Origin: Flavobacteriales bacterium
Lineage (GTDB): Bacteria; Bacteroidota; Bacteroidia; UBA10329
Assembly (NCBI GenBank): GCA_021739695.1
Contig: JAIPBM010000005.1
Location: 62,001 to 126,000 of the forward strand
DNA: 64,000 bases
Direction of reading: 5' to 3'
Below are positions 5,152 through 62,213 of the stretch, piece by piece. The notes under the pieces were generated by a model. The model was given only the letters and a program-made list of their open reading frames with translations. It had not been told where the DNA came from and searched no databases. Position 1 is the stretch's first letter. Each line of letters begins with the position of its first letter. The position numbers and the translations under genes were made by a program.

Positions 5152-7106
5152 TCTTGTATGATTATCCGTTGCGCAAAAACGCCATCGGCAGCATCCACTC
5201 GCAGGATGTACGTACCCGTTTTAAGATGCCCAAGCTCTAATTGACGAGCATATCCTTTCTGAGAAAAAACCACCCTTCCGGATAGGTCAAACATCGAAAT
5301 CTGTGCATTGGAAAATTGTCCTGACTTTGATTCTTCCAGAAAAAGCGTACCGCTTGTCGGGTTCGGATATGCCTTCACGTACAATTGTTCAGACGTTTCT
5401 TTTACACCCACCCAGTCGTCATATGGTTTTCCGAACGAAGGTCTTATCATGATGGCACCTGGAATAGAGCTTTGGCTCCAATTTGTTCCCAAGTTGTAGT
5501 AGACCTTGCTTGATACATCCGTCCGTTTATCAAACCCAACAGAGAATTTGAGATTGGTGGCGGGCTGCTGAATCCAACCTATCCAAATGTTCTCATTAAC
5601 GATAAGGGTCGTATCAAGCGGATAATGGTAGAAATAATTGAACTGATCGGTATATTGTAGATTGATGGATTCGGGTGATGTCCAGATCAACTGTCCTGGC
5701 TGTTCACTTCCAACCCAAACAGCAAGTAGTACTGGTTGATTGGATAAATCGAACTGAACTGGATTAAGATATATCTGAATAGCCTGTAGTGTATCCTCTT
5801 TCTTGATATTGTACTTGACCGCTACCATTCCAATATTCTCCAACTCACCCAATCCATAGGCAGCTTCGGCCGTTCCATCATCGTATGCGTAGTAGTTGTA
5901 GAATTCCTGTTTTTCTACACGTACATTATTCTCTGGATGATCATCAGCTACTTCCAAGGTAAATCTTAGTTCATAAAATGTTGAATCCGGCTTCCATTCA
6001 TCATCAGTAGGAAAACTTGTAATCAAAGTATCAAAATTGTTTAAAAGATTACTGGATGTCCCAATATTACATGATCCTGTAATCACATTATCGCAGATCC
6101 GATTGGCAAAAACAGTAGCAGTTCTAGTGAACACATCATACTTCAGCGCCCCCGTATAATCAAGCATTTGAAGAGAGAAGGTAGTGGGTATATCTGTGGT
6201 ATCGTTATTCCGCAGAGCGATGAACGCTGTGTCTCCGATAAATCCGACAGAATCCATTTTATAATGCTCCCATGGCATAGAACTGAACTCCTTCAACAGT
6301 GAAAAGGTCGCGGTTCTGTTTAGGTCCAATTCAGGAAGAAAAGATGTCTGGCATAGCTGAGACACATCTTTTCTGACCGTATCAGCAGCCGTTCTTCCTC
6401 CATCCAGTTCCACATAATCGATGTGCCAATGGTCTACACTTCCAGCACGCGAAGCATAGTTTTTGAATCGGAATTGAAACCCGTTGTACAAGTATTCTTG
6501 ATCAAGTATTGGCAGCATTGCCCGCTTGAACTTATAATTCTCTAGCGTGTAGCCCTGCGCATCCCAAACCTGTGTCCAAGCATCGGCCGTGTCTTTGAAC
6601 TCCAGCACAAGAAGGTCTTCAGCTTCTGGAGCATTTCCAAGTCCCTGCGCTTGGTAGTAGAAACTGAGATAAACCGTATCTGCAGCAGTGGCAAGATTGA
6701 GCGGTTTTGACGTGAGACTATCTGAAAGTGTTGGCAAAGAAGTACCGAAACCATAAGCCCTGCCGCGCTCATCCAATCCATCAAACGTGGCCACTCCTTG
6801 AGAAATTGGATTAACAGCCATGTGATTGTTGATGTAAACCGTGTTGCCTATCCACCTATCAGGGTTAGGCCACAGGTCAGCATTGGTTCTCAATCGAGAG
6901 AACGGCTCCGAAAAATCATCGAAAAAAGGCAGGTCAAGCGTATCGCCCAGAGCACGTGCGTTTGTCTGCTCCGAACGCAAGTAGGCATCATAATCTTTCA
7001 ATGCACGATTTCCTGTCAGATCCATAAGCATCTCTTGACCAAATCCCGCAAACCAAAGGGTGGTAAGAATGAAACTACTGATCGCCTTCTTCAAAATCAT
7101 CATCAT
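5148..7106 (-). CDS. Large secreted protein with T9SS type A sorting domain
   Basis: A 652-residue secreted protein of unknown function. A signal peptide (KKAISSFILTTLWFAGFGQ) is followed by a MAM/jellyroll-like region (FFDDFSEPF ... VYLSFYYQAQG ... DHWHIDYVEL), which in Bacteroidota often has an adhesive or carbohydrate-binding role. The C-terminus is a type A Por sorting domain (YVKAYPNPTSGTLFL ... LKTGTYILRV), pointing to T9SS export and surface attachment. The start is one of three consecutive ATGs at 7106, 7103 or 7100; all overlap the end of the PASTA gene. The stop overlaps rluD as ATGA. This family often sits beside rluD and ddl in Flavobacteriia, so a cell-envelope role is likely, but the ligand is unknown. 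Confidence 0.88.
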   Translation of the reverse strand: MMMILKKAISSFILTTLWFAGFGQEMLMDLTGNRALKDYDAYLRSEQTNARALGDTLDLPFFDDFSEPFSRLRTNADLWPNPDRWIGNTVYINNHMAVNPISQGVATFDGLDERGRAYGFGTSLPTLSDSLTSKPLNLATAADTVYLSFYYQAQGLGNAPEAEDLLVLEFKDTADAWTQVWDAQGYTLENYKFKRAMLPILDQEYLYNGFQFRFKNYASRAGSVDHWHIDYVELDGGRTAADTVRKDVSQLCQTSFLPELDLNRTATFSLLKEFSSMPWEHYKMDSVGFIGDTAFIALRNNDTTDIPTTFSLQMLDYTGALKYDVFTRTATVFANRICDNVITGSCNIGTSSNLLNNFDTLITSFPTDDEWKPDSTFYELRFTLEVADDHPENNVRVEKQEFYNYYAYDDGTAEAAYGLGELENIGMVAVKYNIKKEDTLQAIQIYLNPVQFDLSNQPVLLAVWVGSEQPGQLIWTSPESINLQYTDQFNYFYHYPLDTTLIVNENIWIGWIQQPATNLKFSVGFDKRTDVSSKVYYNLGTNWSQSSIPGAIMIRPSFGKPYDDWVGVKETSEQLYVKAYPNPTSGTLFLEESKSGQFSNAQISMFDLSGRVVFSQKGYARQLELGHLKTGTYILRVDAADGVFAQRIIIQE

Positions 7107-7947
7107 TTGGCTTTACGTTCAAAAGCAGCGAATCCAGTGGTGGAAGCGCCTTGGAGTAGAGTGCCGTATCGTACTTGATAGAGGCTGTATCTCCGGTGAA
7201 ATAAAGGATAACACTACTTCCCATTGGAAGAAGTTCGCCTTCCCTGAATTCAGGAATCTGTCGGTAAACGCGGACAAGCGAAGTATCCGTAAATGGCGTA
7301 TCCACCCTGAAAGTTCCCAAATTGAGCGAAAACGCATTCAAGCGTTCAACCGCTTCTTCCAACCGATAATAAAGCAGATATGGAACAGGCACACGTGTGT
7401 TGCTGAGGCCGTCTCCAAGCACCAGATCTACCACGGTATTCACAAATACGTTCTTTCCCTTTTGCACCGATCTACCACCGATCTTCTGATCTAGCACAGC
7501 ATTTTTGGCAATGTCTGGTCTGTATTCCAAATTACCGAGCTGAAGACCAACGCTTTCCAACACTGCCTTTGCCTGTCTCAAACTAAGATTGTGAACATCA
7601 GGCATCACAACTTGGCGCGGCATAACCGCATTCACCGTCAGGTAAACTTTTCTGCCTCTTTTTACTCGATATCCCGGCTTCGGCTCTTGGTCGGCAACCG
7701 CTCCGCGAGGAAGATCTGAGGAATAAAGTGAATCCACCACCTCAAATTCAATGTCAGTCGTATCGGCAAAAGCAGCTATCTGCGCTACAGGAACACCGGT
7801 AAAATCAGGCACTTCAACGGTCACTCCGTGTTCGGTGTACGAATCCAACCAAAAGAAAAGGCCAACTGCTGCAAATACTGCTACCAGCACTGCTATGCCA
7901 ACGTTGACCAGGAATTTTTTCGTAAAAATGAACTGGATAAAACCCAT
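7075..7947 (-). CDS. Membrane-anchored PASTA domain protein
   Basis: A 290-residue protein with one N-terminal transmembrane helix (about residues 13-33) and three PASTA repeats outside the membrane: about 42-108 (VEVPDFTGVPVAQI), 112-180 (VVMPDVHNLSLRQA) and 187-255 (VPVPYLLYYRLEEA). The acidic C-terminal tail ends DDDFEEGDQ. PASTA domains bind muropeptides or lipid II in Ser/Thr kinases and penicillin-binding proteins; here no kinase or transpeptidase domain is attached, so the likely role is peptidoglycan sensing or scaffolding. It heads a leftward operon with the T9SS cargo gene and rluD, and diverges from ddl, which makes the D-Ala-D-Ala of peptidoglycan. Confidence 0.88.
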   Translation of the reverse strand: MGFIQFIFTKKFLVNVGIAVLVAVFAAVGLFFWLDSYTEHGVTVEVPDFTGVPVAQIAAFADTTDIEFEVVDSLYSSDLPRGAVADQEPKPGYRVKRGRKVYLTVNAVMPRQVVMPDVHNLSLRQAKAVLESVGLQLGNLEYRPDIAKNAVLDQKIGGRSVQKGKNVFVNTVVDLVLGDGLSNTRVPVPYLLYYRLEEAVERLNAFSLNLGTFRVDTPFTDTSLVRVYRQIPEFREGELLPMGSSVILYFTGDTASIKYDTALYSKALPPLDSLLLNVKPNDDDFEEGDQ

Positions 7948-7984
7948 ATTATCAGACAGAAGTTGCGCTTACAGCAACGGAGGC

Positions 7985-7992
7985 CAAAGATA
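7985..7992 (-). promoter_or_regulatory. -7 box for the PASTA-T9SS-rluD operon
   Basis: On the reverse strand TATCTTTG matches TAnnTTTG exactly, 37 bases before the PASTA start at 7947. The leader contains a small inverted repeat (GTTGC ... GCAAC). Confidence 0.45.
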
Positions 7993-8060
7993 TAAATTAT
8001 GCACCCGCAGCCGTTTAGCATTTATTGGCACACAGAATATGCGCCACTCATAATTTGAAG

Positions 8061-8068
8061 TACATTGG
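8061..8068 (+). promoter_or_regulatory. Possible -7 box for ddl
   Basis: TACATTGG differs from TAnnTTTG at one base and lies 17 bases before the ATG at 8086. It is divergent from the PASTA operon promoter about 70 bases away. Confidence 0.3.
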
Positions 8069-8085
8069 TGCCGTTACATCTCCAA

Positions 8086-9069
8086 ATGAAAAAGACCGTT
8101 GCTATCGTTTTTGGCGGATATTCATCAGAATGGGTGATTTCTGAAATGAGCGCCAAGGTTGTTCACAAACACCTCGATTCCCTCAAGTACAATTTATATC
8201 TGGTCCGAATTGCCAAAGATGGCTGGACCGTCAATTTAGATGATGGTTCAACGGCTGTTGTTGACCGAAATGATTTTTCGTTTGTTAAGAATGGAAACAA
8301 ACACACATTCGATGTGGTTTTCAACGCCATTCACGGAACGCCAGGCGAAGACGGAAAGCTTCAAGGCTATTGGGACATGCTCGGAATTCCGTACACATCG
8401 CCCGGAGTTCTAGCCTCTTCGCTCACGTTCAGTAAGAGCTATTGCAATGGTTTTCTTCGCCAATTTGATGATGTGAATATTGCCGCTTCGGTGATGGTTA
8501 GAAAAGGAGAGAATGTGGATGCAAAAGCCATCCTCGACAAGGTTGGATTGCCATGTTTCGTTAAGCCGAACAACTTGGGTTCAAGCTTCGGGATTACCAA
8601 ACTGAAGGAAGCCGACAAATTCGGTGAAGCACTGTTCACAGCCTTGGAGAATGATGAAGAAGCCGTGATCGAGCAATTCATCAACGGAATTGAAGTTGCT
8701 AGCGGAGTTTACAGCCACAATGGCGAAGTGATTGCCCTTCCGCTGACCGAGATTGTTTCCAAGAATGAATACTTCGATTATCAAGCGAAGTACGAAGGCG
8801 CCAGCGAGGAAATTACACCAGCACGGATTCCAGATTCGGTTCGTGAGCTGATTCAGGAAACCACTCGTAGAATTTTCAAACGCCTGAAACTGAAAGGCAT
8901 GTCGCGCATCGATTACATTGTTCAAGATGGCGTTCCATACCTGATAGAAGTGAACACGATTCCCGGACTATCCGAAGCAAGCCTGTTACCACAGCAAGTG
9001 GTTTATTCTGGAAAGAGCCTACAGGAATTCTTTGGTCTATTGGTGGAAGATGCCTTAGCGGGAAGCTAG
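8086..9069 (+). CDS. ddl: D-alanine--D-alanine ligase
   Basis: A 327-residue ATP-grasp enzyme joining two D-alanines for peptidoglycan precursors in the cytoplasm. Family marks are MKKTVAIVFGGYSSE at the start, HGTPGEDGKLQGYWDMLGIP, LPCFVKPNNLGSSFGI for ATP binding, and IDYIVQDGVPYLIEVNTIPGL with the metal-binding E-x-N near the C-terminus. The ATG at 8086 is used because it gives the normal N-terminus (IVFGG); an upstream in-frame start at 8065 would add seven unrelated residues. It diverges from the PASTA operon and its 3' end overlaps rdgB by 15 bases. Confidence 0.95.
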   Translation: MKKTVAIVFGGYSSEWVISEMSAKVVHKHLDSLKYNLYLVRIAKDGWTVNLDDGSTAVVDRNDFSFVKNGNKHTFDVVFNAIHGTPGEDGKLQGYWDMLGIPYTSPGVLASSLTFSKSYCNGFLRQFDDVNIAASVMVRKGENVDAKAILDKVGLPCFVKPNNLGSSFGITKLKEADKFGEALFTALENDEEAVIEQFINGIEVASGVYSHNGEVIALPLTEIVSKNEYFDYQAKYEGASEEITPARIPDSVRELIQETTRRIFKRLKLKGMSRIDYIVQDGVPYLIEVNTIPGLSEASLLPQQVVYSGKSLQEFFGLLVEDALAGS

Positions 9070-47700: not shown

Positions 47701-47794
47701 GGCATTGCCTTTGGTGATGGTCAAAGTATAGATTTATTTTGTGCTGCACCAAATTGGCGTGGCGCGGTTCTTGCGAAACGGTACCTTAGCAACT

Positions 47795-48184
47795 ATGAAG
47801 AAATTAGCATCCATACTCGTATTATTCTGTCTCTCTTTGACAATCGGCTTTGCACAAGAGGCGAGCGAAACAATCAATACGGCCATCAAAGTGGGGAATT
47901 ATAAAGAACTTTCTAAGTATTTCGATACGAAAGTGGAACTGACCATCGGCCCTAAAGAAGATAGTTACAGCAAAGCTCAAGCTGAGCTAATCGTAAAGGA
48001 TTTCTTTGCAAAGGATAAAGTGACCAATTATCAGGTCATTCACCGTGGTAAATCTCCAGATGGTGCGCAATATGCCATTGGTACGCTTACTACTACCAAA
48101 GGCTCATTCCGAACATACGTGCTTACGAAAGAAGTTGGCGGAAATCTCCGTATTCAACAGCTTCGGTTCGAGCCAAACGAGTAA
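47795..48184 (+). CDS. Exported DUF4783 family protein
   Basis: A 129-residue exported protein with a signal peptide (KKLASILVLFCLSLTIGFAQ) and one DUF4783 domain, an NTF2/SnoaL-like alpha+beta fold: INTAIKVGNYKELSKYFD, VELTIGPKEDSYSKAQAELI and the C-terminal GNLRIQQLRFEPNE. It is common in Bacteroidota, usually beside nadC as here, and its function is unknown. The ATG at 47795 starts the signal peptide; the frame is open back to 47741 without reason to use it. A weak box (TACCTTAG) ends 5 bases before the start. Confidence 0.85.
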   Translation: MKKLASILVLFCLSLTIGFAQEASETINTAIKVGNYKELSKYFDTKVELTIGPKEDSYSKAQAELIVKDFFAKDKVTNYQVIHRGKSPDGAQYAIGTLTTTKGSFRTYVLTKEVGGNLRIQQLRFEPNE

Positions 48185-48193
48185 AACCACTTT

Positions 48194-49027
48194 ATGACGA
48201 TCGTTCAAATCATTGACGAGGCGCTGAAGGAAGACATTGGCGATGGCGATCACACTGCCGATGCGTGCATTCCTGAATCTGCCAAAGGCAAAGCCAAACT
48301 TCTGGTTAAAGAAGATGGCATTATTGCTGGAGTTGAATTGGCCCAGCAGATTTTTTCTCAGTTTGATAAAGACCTGAAAGTCGAGGTCTTTCTTAATGAT
48401 GGGTCGGCAATTCAGATCGGTGATGTGGTTCTAACCGTTGAAGGTTCTTCTCGGTCTATCCTGAAAACAGAACGTTTGGTGCTCAATTTCATGCAACGCA
48501 TGAGCGGAATTGCCACCAAAACAGCCCATTACAACAAACTTATCGAAGGCACTTCGGCCAAATTGCTCGACACACGAAAGACAACTCCGTTGCTTCGCGA
48601 ATTGGAAAAGCTAGCAGTCAAAATCGGTGGTGGCGTCAATCATCGTTTTGGATTGTACGATATGGTGATGATCAAAGACAATCACATCGACCTGGCCGGT
48701 GGAATTCCTCAAGCAATAGAACGTGTTCACGATCATTTGAAATCAATCGGAAAGAATCTTAGAGTTGAGATTGAAGTGCGCGATTTTGACGAATTGAACG
48801 AAGCCCTTTCAGTAGGTGGTTTCCATCGCATCATGTTGGATAATTTCCATCCTGATGACGAGAAAAAAGCCGTTGAATTGATTGCAGGACGATACGAAAC
48901 CGAAGCTTCTGGCGGTATCAACGAAACAACCATTCGAGCGCATGCACTAACCGGAGTTGATTACATTTCGGTGGGAGCATTGACACATAATATCAAAAGT
49001 CTCGACCTTAGTCTGAAAGCGGTCTGA
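48194..49027 (+). CDS. nadC: Nicotinate-nucleotide pyrophosphorylase (carboxylating)
   Basis: A 277-residue quinolinate phosphoribosyltransferase that converts quinolinate and PRPP to nicotinate mononucleotide in de novo NAD synthesis. Key motifs are GDGDHTADACIP near the N-terminus, ERLVLNFMQRMSGIATKT, LDTRKTTPLLRELEK (substrate-binding Arg-Lys), GGGVNHRFGLYDMVMIKDNH and EASGGI near the C-terminus. Length is normal. It begins 9 bases after the DUF4783 gene and ends 1 base before the BrkB-family gene, so the three form one operon. nadA and nadB are not in the window. Confidence 0.97.
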   Translation: MTIVQIIDEALKEDIGDGDHTADACIPESAKGKAKLLVKEDGIIAGVELAQQIFSQFDKDLKVEVFLNDGSAIQIGDVVLTVEGSSRSILKTERLVLNFMQRMSGIATKTAHYNKLIEGTSAKLLDTRKTTPLLRELEKLAVKIGGGVNHRFGLYDMVMIKDNHIDLAGGIPQAIERVHDHLKSIGKNLRVEIEVRDFDELNEALSVGGFHRIMLDNFHPDDEKKAVELIAGRYETEASGGINETTIRAHALTGVDYISVGALTHNIKSLDLSLKAV

Positions 49028-49028
49028 C

Positions 49029-50018
49029 ATGATCAGAAAACTCATTGTCAAAATCCTTCGTCTTCCGATCATTCGGAACATCATTCGTTTCTCGAAAGAG
49101 GTACGAATTCCAGGATTTGACGGTCTGCCACTTTATGACGTAACCGCGTTCTTCGTAAAAGGATTGCAGAACGGTTGGCTCGGCTTGCGCGCTTCGGCTG
49201 TTGCATTCAATTTCATTCTTGCCATTTTTCCGGCCATCATTTTCGTATTCACGCTCATCGCCTACATTCCAATTGATGGATTTCAGGAACAATTACTGAA
49301 TTTGATGGAAGTTTTTCTTCCAACAAACGTTTTCGAAAGTGTGAATGAAACCTTCGAAGACATTATTACCCGACAGCGTGGCGGATTGCTTTCCGTCACG
49401 GTTATTTCTGCGCTTTATTTTTCCACCAATGGATTGCACACGCTCATTGACAGTTTCAACACCACATTTCACACAATTGAAAGTCGACCATATTTTGTTC
49501 AACGAGGTATTTCCATTCTTCTCACGCTCATTCTGACCATGTTCACATTGGTGGCGATCGCCCTTATTGTATTCGGGGAAATAGGCATGGATTTCATTCG
49601 CCAAAAAGGTTGGATTGAAGATGACCTTTTGAGTTTTGGACTCAACATTGCCCGATGGATCATCATTCTTGGGTTGATGTTCTTCGCTATTTCCGTTCTG
49701 TATTTCCTTGGCCCAGCAAAACAGACCAAATGGCGCTTTTTCTCTGCGGGATCAACATTGGCAACGGTGCTGGTACTGATCACCTCCATCGGCTTCAGCT
49801 ATTTTGTAGAGAATTTTGGTCAGTACAATAAATTGTATGGTTCTATCGGAACGCTGGTAATTGTAATGCTTTGGACGTATTTCAACTCCATCGCATTATT
49901 GATCGGATTCGAACTGAATGCAAGCATTGAGGATGCTAAACTCCGCGAAATTGCACTCAACAAGCGTTCTCTTCATATTTCACTTGAAGACGAAATTGAA
50001 AAAGGCAGTCAATCATGA
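49029..50018 (+). CDS. YihY/BrkB family inner-membrane protein
   Basis: A 329-residue protein of the YihY/BrkB (formerly mis-assigned RNase BN) family with about six helices: AVAFNFILAIFPAIIFVFTLI in the first, FSTNGLHTLIDSFN in the central loop, and LYGSIGTLVIVMLWTYFNSIALLIG near the C-terminus. The family has been linked to lipid transport across the envelope but has no settled activity. It overlaps the M1 peptidase gene by 4 bases (ATGA), so the two are co-translated. Confidence 0.9.
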   Translation: MIRKLIVKILRLPIIRNIIRFSKEVRIPGFDGLPLYDVTAFFVKGLQNGWLGLRASAVAFNFILAIFPAIIFVFTLIAYIPIDGFQEQLLNLMEVFLPTNVFESVNETFEDIITRQRGGLLSVTVISALYFSTNGLHTLIDSFNTTFHTIESRPYFVQRGISILLTLILTMFTLVAIALIVFGEIGMDFIRQKGWIEDDLLSFGLNIARWIIILGLMFFAISVLYFLGPAKQTKWRFFSAGSTLATVLVLITSIGFSYFVENFGQYNKLYGSIGTLVIVMLWTYFNSIALLIGFELNASIEDAKLREIALNKRSLHISLEDEIEKGSQS

Positions 50019-53000
50019 AGAAACTCTTACCTGTACTGATTCTGTTGATTGCCCAAACTGCTTTCGGACAGTATAATCCACTTTCTCCACCCAACACATT
50101 TCGCTCAGCGGACAATCCTTTGTATTGGAAAAATCGTGCGCCAAGCACCGATTACTGGCAGCAAGACGTGCATTACCGCATTGCGGCCAATGTGGACGAG
50201 CAGACCGACATTATCTCTGCCAAAATGGAGTTGAGTTATTGGAACAATTCGCCCGATACGCTTTATGAGGTTTTCTTCCATTTATATCAGAATGCTTTTC
50301 AGCCAAATTCTTACGCAGATAAGAACGACCAAGCGAAAGGCACGAAAAACCATTTTGGGAAGTACGAGAAGGCTGGGAAAGGAACGGAAGTCCTCTCGCT
50401 GACCATGAACGGCAAAGATGTTCAGCAAGAATTGGACAATACGATCCTGCGCATCATTCCGAACGAACCAATACTTCCCAATTCAAAAACGGAATTCAAA
50501 ATTGAATTCAAAACCTACTTCGATCAAGGTTCGATGGGACGTAGGATGAAGCTTTTCTCATCAGGAGAATTCACGCATTATGATGGCGTGCATTGGTATC
50601 CGCGCATTTCGGTTTACGATAGAAAATTCGGTTGGACAACAGATCAACATCTTGGTAGTGAGTTTTATGGAGATTTCGGAACCTTTGATGTAGCGCTCAC
50701 TTTTGCAAGCAATTATGTGGTTGGAGCAACGGGTTTTCTGCTCAATCGAAATACGGTTCTTCCACAGGAACTCCGCCAGAAACTGGACGTGAAGAATTTT
50801 GCTGGTAAACCTTGGGATGAAGCTGCTTCCGTCATCATTCCATACGATAGCACTGAGCACAAAACATGGATCTATCATGCAGAGAACGTGCACGATTTTG
50901 CCTTTACAGCTGACCCGAATTACCGTATTGGCGAAGCTGAATGGAATGGCGTCAAATGCTATTCACTGGCGCAAGAAGGTCATGCTTCGGGTTGGCAGAA
51001 TGCTGCAGAATACACCGCCAAGACCATTCAGGTTTTCTCTGAAGGAATTGGCATGTATCAATATCACAAAATGATTGTTGCCGATGCAGAAGACGGCATG
51101 GAATATCCGATGCTTACCTTGGATGGAGGAAGTGATCCTGACTACCGCGGATTGCTTGTTCACGAAGTAGGACACAACTGGTTTTTCGGTCAAGTTGGCA
51201 ACAACGAAACCTATCGCGCAGCCTTGGATGAGGGATTTACCCAATATCTGACCGCCTACGGAATGCGCAAAATTGATGGCGACACCGTTATTGAAGAACC
51301 TTCAAAAAATTGGTACAGACGAAGATTTGAGAAAGAACGACTGGTTATGGACGATGAGATCTACTATGGTTTCATGAACAGCGCCATGCAGTTTCTTGAC
51401 CCGCACTTGAATACGCATTCCGATCAATTTGATGATTACAGACACGGTTACGGCCACGTTTATTACAAAACAGCCACCATGCTCTACAATCTCGAATACG
51501 TTCTGGGCGATACGCTTTTTGCTAACGCAATGAAGCATTATTTCAATGAGTGGCGCTTCTGTCATCCGTACTTTGAAGATTTTAGGAATTCCATCATCCA
51601 CTACACCAAAGTAGACCTTAACTGGTTCTTTGACCAATGGTTAGAAACCGACAAGCGCATCGATTATGCGATTGCTGGTATACGCAGATCGGATGAGCCA
51701 GGGAAATTCATGGTGAAATTCAAACGGAAAGGAGACTTGCAGATGCCACTCGATTTTGAGGTGACGGATCAAAACGACAGCATCCACCGATTCCACATTC
51801 CGAACACATGGTTCAGTAAAGAAACCGATGCCACAGTGCTTCCAAAATGGACAGGTTTCAATGAATTGAATAAGACGTATGAGGTGGCTATTTCCATTCT
51901 GGAAGGAATAAAACGTGTCGACATAGACCCAACATACCGGTTGGCAGACATAAACATGCTTGATAATTCTTCTGCCTCAGCGATAGAATTCGAATTCGAC
52001 CATCAATTGTACGGTCGGCCTGATTGGAAAAAATATGAGGTCTTTGCACGACCTGACTTTTGGTACAATGGTTATGATGGCATCAAATTCGGAATTCACC
52101 TCAACGGAAGCCATTTCAACCTCAATCATAAATTCAATCTGTACCTCTGGGCAAATTCCGGATTGGCACAATGGGATATTCCAAGCAATGTTAGCGTGAA
52201 CGAATTCATGCCGATTTCCGTGCTTTTCGATTACAAAACCTCCTTGGCCCGTTATTGGAAAAACAGCTCAGTAGATGTTGCGGCTCGGATTCTTGATGGA
52301 CTGTACAACGCGGAATTTGGCTTCGAAAAGCAGAATAAAAAGCGCACAACCACCTTCCGATTGTATTTCCGCTCTCTTTATCGACAGAGAGACCGCGATA
52401 TCGCGTACTTGCTGAATCGCGATACCTGGAATGCAGACATGTGGAATAACTCGTTCAATCTAGATATCAAGCATGTTTATCGTTATGGTTCTGGAAATGG
52501 AGAGTTGAAAATCGGTCTCCGAAGCAGTTCGCTTGGCAGCGATTACGACTTTCATCAACTGAAATTGGAAGCCAAGAATACCACGCAACTTTGGCACTTG
52601 ATTCTCAAAACACGCATGTTTGCGCAGCTTGGAACTGGCAGTAATTGGGCGCCCGAATCGCAATTGTATGTAGGCGGAGCCAATCCAGAGGAAATGATGT
52701 ACAACAAATACATGCGCTCATCTGGAATACTGCCTTCTGATTGGGCCACATTCCGCGAAACCTCCAACCATTTACAATACGGTGGTGGATTGAATTTGCG
52801 AGGATATGTCGGCTATTTGGCACCAGAAAATGTAGGAGACGGAGTGGTGCTCGCCTACGCTGGAAACAGCGGAGCTTCCATCAATGCAGAATTGGAATTT
52901 GATGAGATTTTTGGTCTACGTCCAAATTGGACCAGAAGATGGCTGGACATCGACATGTATATTTTTGGAGATCTTGGATTCATCAACACGAACCGACCAG

Positions 53001-53200
53001 GAGAAAAATTGGCCTTTGCTAAGCCACGAGCTGACGCAGGGTTAGGCGCAGCACTCACCATTAAAAAATGGGGATTATTGAATAAAGTGAAACCGCTAAC
53101 CATCCGATTTGATATGCCATTGTTCTTAAATCGAAGCCCAGCGTTAGATCCTGAACCTTGGGCTTTCCGATGGATGCTGGGAATCAGCAGAGCTTTTTAA
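50015..53200 (+). CDS. M1 family metallopeptidase with C-terminal outer-membrane barrel-like domain
   Basis: A 1061-residue exported peptidase. The signal peptide (KKLLPVLILLIAQTAFGQ) is followed by an M1 domain with DGMEYPM (GAMEN equivalent) near 360 and HEVGH at 383-387, then 18 residues to Glu406, the full HExxH-x18-E zinc site. From about residue 600 the protein is rich in alternating aromatic and polar beta strands, has GGGLNLRGY (923-931), similar to the RGF/RGY turn of BamA/D15 barrels, and ends in ISRAF with a terminal Phe, as many outer-membrane barrels do. I infer a peptidase anchored in or inserted through the outer membrane. Confidence 0.88.
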   Translation: MKKLLPVLILLIAQTAFGQYNPLSPPNTFRSADNPLYWKNRAPSTDYWQQDVHYRIAANVDEQTDIISAKMELSYWNNSPDTLYEVFFHLYQNAFQPNSYADKNDQAKGTKNHFGKYEKAGKGTEVLSLTMNGKDVQQELDNTILRIIPNEPILPNSKTEFKIEFKTYFDQGSMGRRMKLFSSGEFTHYDGVHWYPRISVYDRKFGWTTDQHLGSEFYGDFGTFDVALTFASNYVVGATGFLLNRNTVLPQELRQKLDVKNFAGKPWDEAASVIIPYDSTEHKTWIYHAENVHDFAFTADPNYRIGEAEWNGVKCYSLAQEGHASGWQNAAEYTAKTIQVFSEGIGMYQYHKMIVADAEDGMEYPMLTLDGGSDPDYRGLLVHEVGHNWFFGQVGNNETYRAALDEGFTQYLTAYGMRKIDGDTVIEEPSKNWYRRRFEKERLVMDDEIYYGFMNSAMQFLDPHLNTHSDQFDDYRHGYGHVYYKTATMLYNLEYVLGDTLFANAMKHYFNEWRFCHPYFEDFRNSIIHYTKVDLNWFFDQWLETDKRIDYAIAGIRRSDEPGKFMVKFKRKGDLQMPLDFEVTDQNDSIHRFHIPNTWFSKETDATVLPKWTGFNELNKTYEVAISILEGIKRVDIDPTYRLADINMLDNSSASAIEFEFDHQLYGRPDWKKYEVFARPDFWYNGYDGIKFGIHLNGSHFNLNHKFNLYLWANSGLAQWDIPSNVSVNEFMPISVLFDYKTSLARYWKNSSVDVAARILDGLYNAEFGFEKQNKKRTTTFRLYFRSLYRQRDRDIAYLLNRDTWNADMWNNSFNLDIKHVYRYGSGNGELKIGLRSSSLGSDYDFHQLKLEAKNTTQLWHLILKTRMFAQLGTGSNWAPESQLYVGGANPEEMMYNKYMRSSGILPSDWATFRETSNHLQYGGGLNLRGYVGYLAPENVGDGVVLAYAGNSGASINAELEFDEIFGLRPNWTRRWLDIDMYIFGDLGFINTNRPGEKLAFAKPRADAGLGAALTIKKWGLLNKVKPLTIRFDMPLFLNRSPALDPEPWAFRWMLGISRAF

Positions 53201-61010: not shown

Positions 61011-62213
61011 TCAGTCTGTTTTAAATCCAATGTTTTGTAATTCCGACCAAAAGGTAGGAAAGCTTTTTTCCACTACTTCAGGATTTTCAATTTCAGTTCT
61101 CATTACTGTTGAAAGAACCGCAGCACTCATCGCCATTCGGTGATCATTGTATGTATTGATGACAGCGGTTTCAGCAGAAATTGAACCCGAAACGGTCAAC
61201 GAATCTCCGCGGATAGCTACATATACCCCCAGTTTTTTCAACTCCCACTTAAGCGCTTTCAACCGGTCTGTTTCTTTGAACCTAAGGTTGTCCAAACCGG
61301 TAAGCGCCAATGACTTTCCAAGAGTTACGGCAAGAAACGCAAATGTCTGCGCGAGGTCCGGGTTGTGGGTAAAATCAATGCTTTTAGGGAAATCGACTAC
61401 TTCAATAGAAGAAATCTCAACTCCATTTTCCTTCTGAACCGATGTTACGCCCATTCCCAAAAACCATTCTTTCAGTATTGAATCGCCCTGAGAAGAATTG
61501 AGCTTCAACCCTTTCAGCAGGAATTTTGAATTTGGTCTTGCTGCGGCAAGTGCGTAGAAATAAGACGCTGCGCTCCAGTCTGCCTCCACATCCAAGTTCG
61601 AAATCTGATAATTCCCTGCTGCTATATCTACGGTATTTCCTTGAAATTGAACTTCAATCCCGGACTGACGCATGCAATCGGCCGTAAGTTCAATGTAAGG
61701 TCGTGAAAGCACTTTCCCATCGAGTAGAATAGTGAGTCCGTCCTTCATTCTTGGAGCAATCATCATCAAAGCCGAAACGAACTGACTACTTACGGAAGCG
61801 GAGATTTCAACTTTTCCTCCTTTAAGCTTCTTTCCAACGATTTTCAACGGTGGAAAACCATCGTTTTCAACATAGTCGATGACCGAACCAAGTTCGCGAA
61901 GCACCGTTACCAATTCGGAAATCGGTCGTTGTTTCATTCGTTCATCGCCTGTAAGCACAACGCTTTTTCCTTCTTGCGCAGAATAATAAGCAGTGAGAAA
62001 TCGCATGGCCGTTCCTGCCATTCCGATGTTGATTTTATCGGAATTTGAACTCAATGCATCGCGCAACACTTTCACATCCTCTGGAAGCGAATTCGGAAGT
62101 TTTACATCTTTTCCTGCAAGCGCTGCAATAATCTGATAACGATTGGCAATGCTTTTCGAAATCGGAAGTTCCACTTCTCCCGTCAACGGTCCATTTGGCA
62201 CAAGCAATTTCAT
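61011..62213 (-). CDS. aroA: 3-phosphoshikimate 1-carboxyvinyltransferase (EPSP synthase)
   Basis: A 400-residue EPSP synthase, step six of the shikimate pathway, joining shikimate 3-phosphate and phosphoenolpyruvate. It is a little shorter than the usual 425-430. Motifs include LPISKSIANRYQIIAAL (substrate-binding Lys and Ser), GMAGTAMRFLTA (in place of GNAGTAMRPL), MKQRPISELV, SSQFVSALMM, and the C-terminal TYNDHRMAMSAAV. Several positions vary from the E. coli type, as in other Bacteroidota. It overlaps aroB by 4 bases (ATGA). Confidence 0.95.
   Translation of the reverse strand: MKLLVPNGPLTGEVELPISKSIANRYQIIAALAGKDVKLPNSLPEDVKVLRDALSSNSDKINIGMAGTAMRFLTAYYSAQEGKSVVLTGDERMKQRPISELVTVLRELGSVIDYVENDGFPPLKIVGKKLKGGKVEISASVSSQFVSALMMIAPRMKDGLTILLDGKVLSRPYIELTADCMRQSGIEVQFQGNTVDIAAGNYQISNLDVEADWSAASYFYALAAARPNSKFLLKGLKLNSSQGDSILKEWFLGMGVTSVQKENGVEISSIEVVDFPKSIDFTHNPDLAQTFAFLAVTLGKSLALTGLDNLRFKETDRLKALKWELKKLGVYVAIRGDSLTVSGSISAETAVINTYNDHRMAMSAAVLSTVMRTEIENPEVVEKSFPTFWSELQNIGFKTD

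Follow-up and report, generated by a model that had tools for sequence, protein, structure and literature searches.

A predicted M1 aminopeptidase on an Omp85-like outer-membrane barrel in the Bacteroidia

Described relatives and the gene in question

Enzymes attached to outer-membrane barrels of the Omp85 type have been described before. In PlpD of Pseudomonas aeruginosa (patatin-Omp85, type Vd secretion), a patatin lipase and a POTRA domain precede a 16-stranded Omp85 barrel, and the enzyme is reported to reside in the periplasm (PMC11116518). The survey of Heinz and Lithgow (2014; PMC4104836), in the main text of which the word 'peptidase' is absent, distinguishes two POTRA-less Omp85 subfamilies: 'Metallo', with a metal-dependent domain (PF00149), and 'noNterm', without any N-terminal domain. 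Here we describe a gene in a stretch of 64,000 nucleotides from a Flavobacteriales bacterium (assembly GCA_021739695.1, contig JAIPBM010000005.1, forward-strand positions 62,001 to 126,000), called the window below, which is predicted to encode an M1 zinc aminopeptidase fused to an Omp85-like barrel. Searches of an open-access library gave no account of an M1 peptidase joined to an outer-membrane barrel, and this fusion is apparently undescribed, the principle of an enzyme on such a barrel being already known from PlpD.

The window protein resembles PlpD in having its enzyme N-terminal to a 16-stranded barrel (and in the periplasm, as we infer below), but its enzyme is an M1 aminopeptidase and not a patatin lipase, a POTRA domain was not detected in it, and it belongs to a Bacteroidota lineage. 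With PepN, ERAP1, IRAP and leukotriene A4 hydrolase it has in common the zinc site, the fold and the probable catalytic tyrosine; it differs in having GMEYP where these M1 aminopeptidases have GAMEN, and a predicted membrane barrel in place of the C-terminal helical domain of the soluble M1 enzymes. The barrels of BamA, TamA and TamL are its best fold matches in the PDB and share with it 16 strands (here predicted) and an RGY in the loop between strands 11 and 12, whereas the N-terminal M1 part, the lack of a detectable POTRA and the lack of a PF01103 match set it apart. In BamA the loop joining strands 11 and 12 is L6, the site of the RGY motif. The study of the beta-barrel assembly machinery (BAM) of F. 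johnsoniae also places LRGY in L6 (PMC12611786). A possible identity of the window protein with a Bacteroidota BAM subunit was rejected, as that paper nowhere contains the word 'peptidase' and, by its description, BamP and BamM are other proteins. The 'Metallo' proteins differ from the window protein in carrying PF00149 instead of M1, and 'noNterm' may be compared with the barrel-only homologues reported below. The features of the gene are as follows (window positions, all on the + strand).

50015..53200, +: whole gene, with putative signal peptide, M1 peptidase and 16-stranded barrel (open reading frame with ATG start, 1061 amino acids)
50015..50071, +: putative signal peptide, about residues 1-19 (MKKLLPVLILLIAQTAFGQ), from the sequence and a predicted helix at 4-13 followed by disorder
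50147..51661, +: M1 N-terminal and catalytic domains, about residues 45-549 (Pfam PF01433; Foldseek matches to IRAP/ERAP1/PepN)
51095..51109, +: GMEYP, residues 361-365, exopeptidase motif of the GxMEN type (G361, E363 and P365 invariant in 40 sequences)
51161..51175, +: HEVGH zinc site, residues 383-387 (H383, E384 and H387 invariant in 40 sequences)
51230..51232, +: Glu406, third zinc ligand (invariant in 40 sequences)
51461..51463, +: Tyr483, probable catalytic tyrosine (invariant, in a VY.K context; role by analogy with PepN)
51662..51934, +: beta linker domain, about residues 550-640 (model strands at 551-637; also kept in genome G012)
52034..53185, +: predicted 16-stranded Omp85-like barrel, residues 674-1057 (AlphaFold2, Foldseek against the PDB, hydropathy alternation)
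52646..52870, +: 75-residue loop between strands 11 and 12, equivalent to L6, residues 878-952 (strand boundaries of the model, loop lengths)
52781..52807, +: GGGLNLRGY, residues 923-931 (G924, G925, N927, R929 and G930 invariant in 40 sequences)
53195..53197, +: C-terminal Phe1061 (invariant in the 40-sequence alignment)

The peptidase and the barrel

The Pfam family Peptidase_M1 (PF01433) was matched at residues 380-542 (E = 1.1e-13; 51.8 bits against a curated cut-off of 27.7) and was the only family found over the whole protein at E ≤ 10; the M1 matches in NCBIfam were weak and all fell under its cut-offs. When the full-length model was compared with the PDB by Foldseek, all 50 listed matches were M1 aminopeptidases (IRAP/ERAP1/PepN; best E = 1.2e-22). 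An earlier note, made from the sequence alone, had read a complete catalytic zinc site from HEVGH and Glu406, and both are present at exactly the positions it gave. The active-site residues G361, E363, H383, E384, H387, E406 and Y483 showed no variation in the 40-sequence alignment, and all members of the window's own subfamily that possess the catalytic domain have an unchanged active site. Since the catalytic residues are complete and do not vary, the window-type enzyme is very probably active.

A scan of 84,980 species genomes yielded 455 relatives of the barrel, the best 80 of which were fetched as loci. A pattern search recovered HExxH-18-E in 73 of these; the remaining seven comprise two barrel-only loci, four truncated where a contig stops and one (L048) with an in-frame stop, the upstream piece of which still shows HEVGH and the downstream Glu. 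The GxMEN-type motif, GMEYP in the window protein (Glu kept, Asn replaced by Tyr), is retained in most loci and reads GTEFP or GVEYP in three, again with the Glu kept. The single stop of L048 lies in the M1 part of an M1-barrel gene (L048:4006-7236) and reflects either decay or an assembly error.

For the C-terminal region, AlphaFold2 gave a confident barrel of 16 strands spanning residues 674-1057, both in the full protein (mean predicted local distance difference test score, pLDDT, 83.9; predicted template-modelling score, pTM, 0.81) and with the barrel modelled alone (pLDDT 87.3, pTM 0.83). A closed beta barrel was what the earlier note had expected of a structure prediction, and the model agrees; the length of some 450 residues that it had assigned to the barrel is shortened to about 388 (674-1057), and residues of about 550-640 belong to the M1 part as a soluble beta linker. 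The full-length pTM of 0.81 suggests that the two domains have a defined arrangement in the model. The hydropathy of the predicted strands alternates strongly (1.115, against a mean of 0.505 and a maximum of 0.833 in 2000 shuffles). For Foldseek the barrel was modelled separately, because M1 proteins took up the whole list obtained with the full-length model; the barrel alone then gave 50 listed PDB matches, all of them Omp85 proteins (BamA and TamA, including the BamA of F. johnsoniae; best E = 1e-8). Neither the protein nor the barrel profile matched any barrel when the PDB was searched by sequence, and the single match with E < 0.001 in a viral structure library (A0A0R6PI85, nameless in the tables) was not informative.

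LRGY, at residues 928-931, lies in the model within the loop of residues 878-952 that joins strands 11 and 12, and RGY shows little or no variation across the 40 aligned sequences. The GGGLNLRGY turn and the terminal Phe are exactly where the earlier note had located them, and the likeness that it saw to the RGF motif of BamA/D15 is borne out by the position of RGY in the same loop as in BamA.

The loops that follow the odd strands of the model sum to 150 residues and the turns that follow the even strands to 45. Outer-membrane barrels have their long loops outside; both termini, and hence the peptidase, would therefore lie in the periplasm. This topology agrees with the periplasmic enzyme domain reported for PlpD (PMC11116518), and of the two locations offered earlier for the active site, the inner face of the outer membrane or the cell surface, the loop lengths favour the former over the latter.

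Distribution, and lineages without an active peptidase

The fusion is no accident of one genome. Most of the 39 related genomes searched hold full-length or near full-length orthologues (45-80% identity), which extend across the class. The earlier note had proposed to look for the same fusion in other Bacteroidota, and an even sample of 396 genomes across the Bacteroidia contained the barrel in 194 (83 of 199 genera), nearly all of the listed matches lying inside frames of ~1060-1110 amino acids, i.e. fused. In the window the gene is preceded by genes for DUF4783, nadC and brkB (47741..50018, +; open reading frames, Pfam), the start of the M1-barrel gene overlapping the 3' end of brkB by 4 bp, and 29 of the 80 loci likewise have an upstream brkB homologue of the type seen in the window, usually accompanied by DUF4783 and nadC in the same order as here. 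Several metagenome records under the names Chryseobacterium gleum or Chitinophaga pinensis (L043, L046, L047 and others) carry this uncultured family as well; these names seem unreliable.

The peptidase is not always retained. In two species of the window's genus (G005 and G007; loci L036 and L037) the gene in this position consists of the barrel alone, in frames of 444-445 amino acids with a signal-peptide-like start of their own. In the tree both stand beside the branch of the window, within the fused clade (support 100/100), and the peptidase has therefore been lost there. In a third, distant genome (G012, locus L231) the gene that follows nadC has kept linker and barrel (36% identity over residues 578-1061) and lacks the catalytic domain; this version also nests among fused forms, and its catalytic domain was lost independently of G005 and G007. 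Barrel-only homologues of ~400-470 amino acids also exist beyond the class, the majority in family f51, and as a set they align with the window barrel with an hhalign probability of 100% (E = 3.4e-41). A zinc-motif search of 12 such barrel-only neighbourhoods revealed no M1 gene, and a split M1 gene beside the barrel was rejected for these. The barrel-only homologues at L189-L200 are covered by no Pfam family and often adjoin NUDIX-, GreA- and acetate kinase-like genes (named by reading the sequences). On the sequence comparisons, the M1 and barrel modules are evolutionarily separable and the barrel stands alone. Because the peptidase has repeatedly been lost and the barrel retained, the barrel seems to have the more conserved function, and the pattern suggests that this function is the older or more general one.

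The genome from which the window comes encodes a second, type-2 M1-barrel protein (L152, 1042 amino acids), in which M1 is likewise followed by a barrel-like region, distantly related to the window barrel (in global hhalign, a probability of 69% with the pooled family and 90% with the barrel-only set). The type-2 family occurs in 52 of 297 genomes of the phylum and does not conserve the RGY motif. HExxH was kept in all nine genomes examined of families f33, f35 and f37, and both HExxH and the GxMEN-type motif were lost in all 12 examined of families f34 and f21 (G092 and 11 more); f34 may correspond to Flavobacteriaceae. The protein of G092 (L233:3807-6644; further cases at L234-L253) retains the C-terminal region and an end-to-end alignment (22% over 986 columns, E = 5e-65), and the type-2 proteins of f34 and f21 are, by their motifs, probable pseudo-aminopeptidases.

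Other M1 proteins of the window's genome include one of 1197 amino acids in which ABC-permease-like membrane segments are fused to M1 (L153:2296-5886), probably a known annotation type, and two secreted barrel-free proteins, ~2.3 kb apart, with frames of 627 and 779 amino acids (L155:1643-3523 and 5868-8204), the former of which is, among the barrel-free proteins of the genome, most closely related to the window protein.

Explanations and meaning

The explanation that we consider probable is that of an active M1 aminopeptidase on an Omp85-like outer-membrane barrel, held in the periplasm and trimming N-termini at the inner face of the membrane. The signal peptide would direct the protein to secretion, and the C-terminal barrel, for which, as for its Omp85 fold, we rely on the model, would insert into the outer membrane. 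With both termini periplasmic, the M1 domain would be fixed beneath the barrel, in the place that POTRA takes in BamA and TamA, where it would bind and most likely trim the N-termini of peptides or unfolded chains. The M1 assignment with its intact active site, the conserved and distinct C-terminal module and the separability of the two parts come from the sequences; the topology, the activity and the peptide or unfolded-protein substrate are what we infer. The architecture, an active periplasmic M1 on an outer-membrane Omp85-like barrel, is well supported by prediction and comparison; its task is not.

Several observations weigh against this explanation. The repeated loss of the peptidase in relatives indicates that catalysis is not the sole conserved role. 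The template-modelling scores of the barrel with PDB structures are modest (0.36-0.49 by query; target-based maximum 0.56, with the TamA barrel 4n74), PF01103 (Omp85) was not matched at E ≤ 10 in any of 24 family members, and no POTRA was found, M1 being the only N-terminal Pfam match at E ≤ 10. Furthermore, hhalign probabilities against single Omp85 subfamilies stayed low, both for the window barrel family with same-class BamA-type and TamA-type profiles (≤ 18.4%) and for the pooled family (≤ 25.7%). The pooled family aligned with pooled Omp85 with a probability of 86% (local) and 91% (global; reversed controls ≤ 6%), values above 80% being reached only when profiles were pooled. Omp85 membership is only moderately supported by sequence, and we name the barrel Omp85-like and not a canonical Omp85, because the Pfam Omp85 family was unmatched and POTRA not found. 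The barrel-based Omp85 definition of Heinz and Lithgow, which includes POTRA-less subfamilies (PMC4104836), might cover it.

A less probable alternative is that the barrel is mainly an assembly or translocation factor of the outer membrane, like other Omp85 proteins, in which M1 replaces POTRA and grips the N-termini of substrates, catalysis being secondary. It can hold together with the trimming of N-termini, and is favoured by the survival of the barrel in G005, G007 and G012, by the type-2 proteins without catalytic motifs that keep their fold and barrel-like region (12 of 12 genomes of f34/f21) and by the near invariance of RGY; against it, the barrel-only forms have neither POTRA nor M1, BamA-type and TamA-type Omp85 genes are also present, and the active site does not vary in the window subfamily where its domain is kept. 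More tentatively, the protein could be an undescribed Omp85-like biogenesis factor in which the aminopeptidase fold, in the place of POTRA, grips incoming N-termini, active forms clipping them and, in some bacterial families, related pseudo-peptidases only binding.

It is rather unlikely that the barrel is a pore for nutrient uptake, with M1 digesting the peptides that enter. Digestion of small peptides is what M1 aminopeptidases do and the predicted placement under the barrel would suit it, but in BamA-like barrels the long conserved loop that bears RGY reaches into the lumen, the neighbours are housekeeping and not uptake genes, and no TonB-type partner was seen adjoining the gene. Export of the M1 domain to the cell surface, in the manner of a type Vd autotransporter, is improbable: this was the original proposal for PlpD (PMC4104836), the enzyme domain of which was later reported to remain periplasmic (PMC11116518), and here the loop lengths place the N-terminus in the periplasm and a folded M1 domain of ~600 residues, N-terminal to the barrel, would have to be exported. 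That the C-terminal region is a soluble beta domain is hardly credible, even though no library family matches it, given the confident 16-strand prediction with its Omp85 fold matches, the strong hydropathy alternation and the stand-alone copies with a signal-peptide-like start of their own.

With this protein, an aminopeptidase would join the short list of enzymes on Omp85-type barrels, in about half of the sampled Bacteroidia genomes. Lineages with an active enzyme, with a dead enzyme and without enzyme all retain a barrel and would form a natural test of its role. The biogenesis of the outer membrane in Bacteroidota has recently been shown to be unlike that of E. coli (PMC12611786), and an overlooked Omp85-like family would therefore be directly relevant to it.

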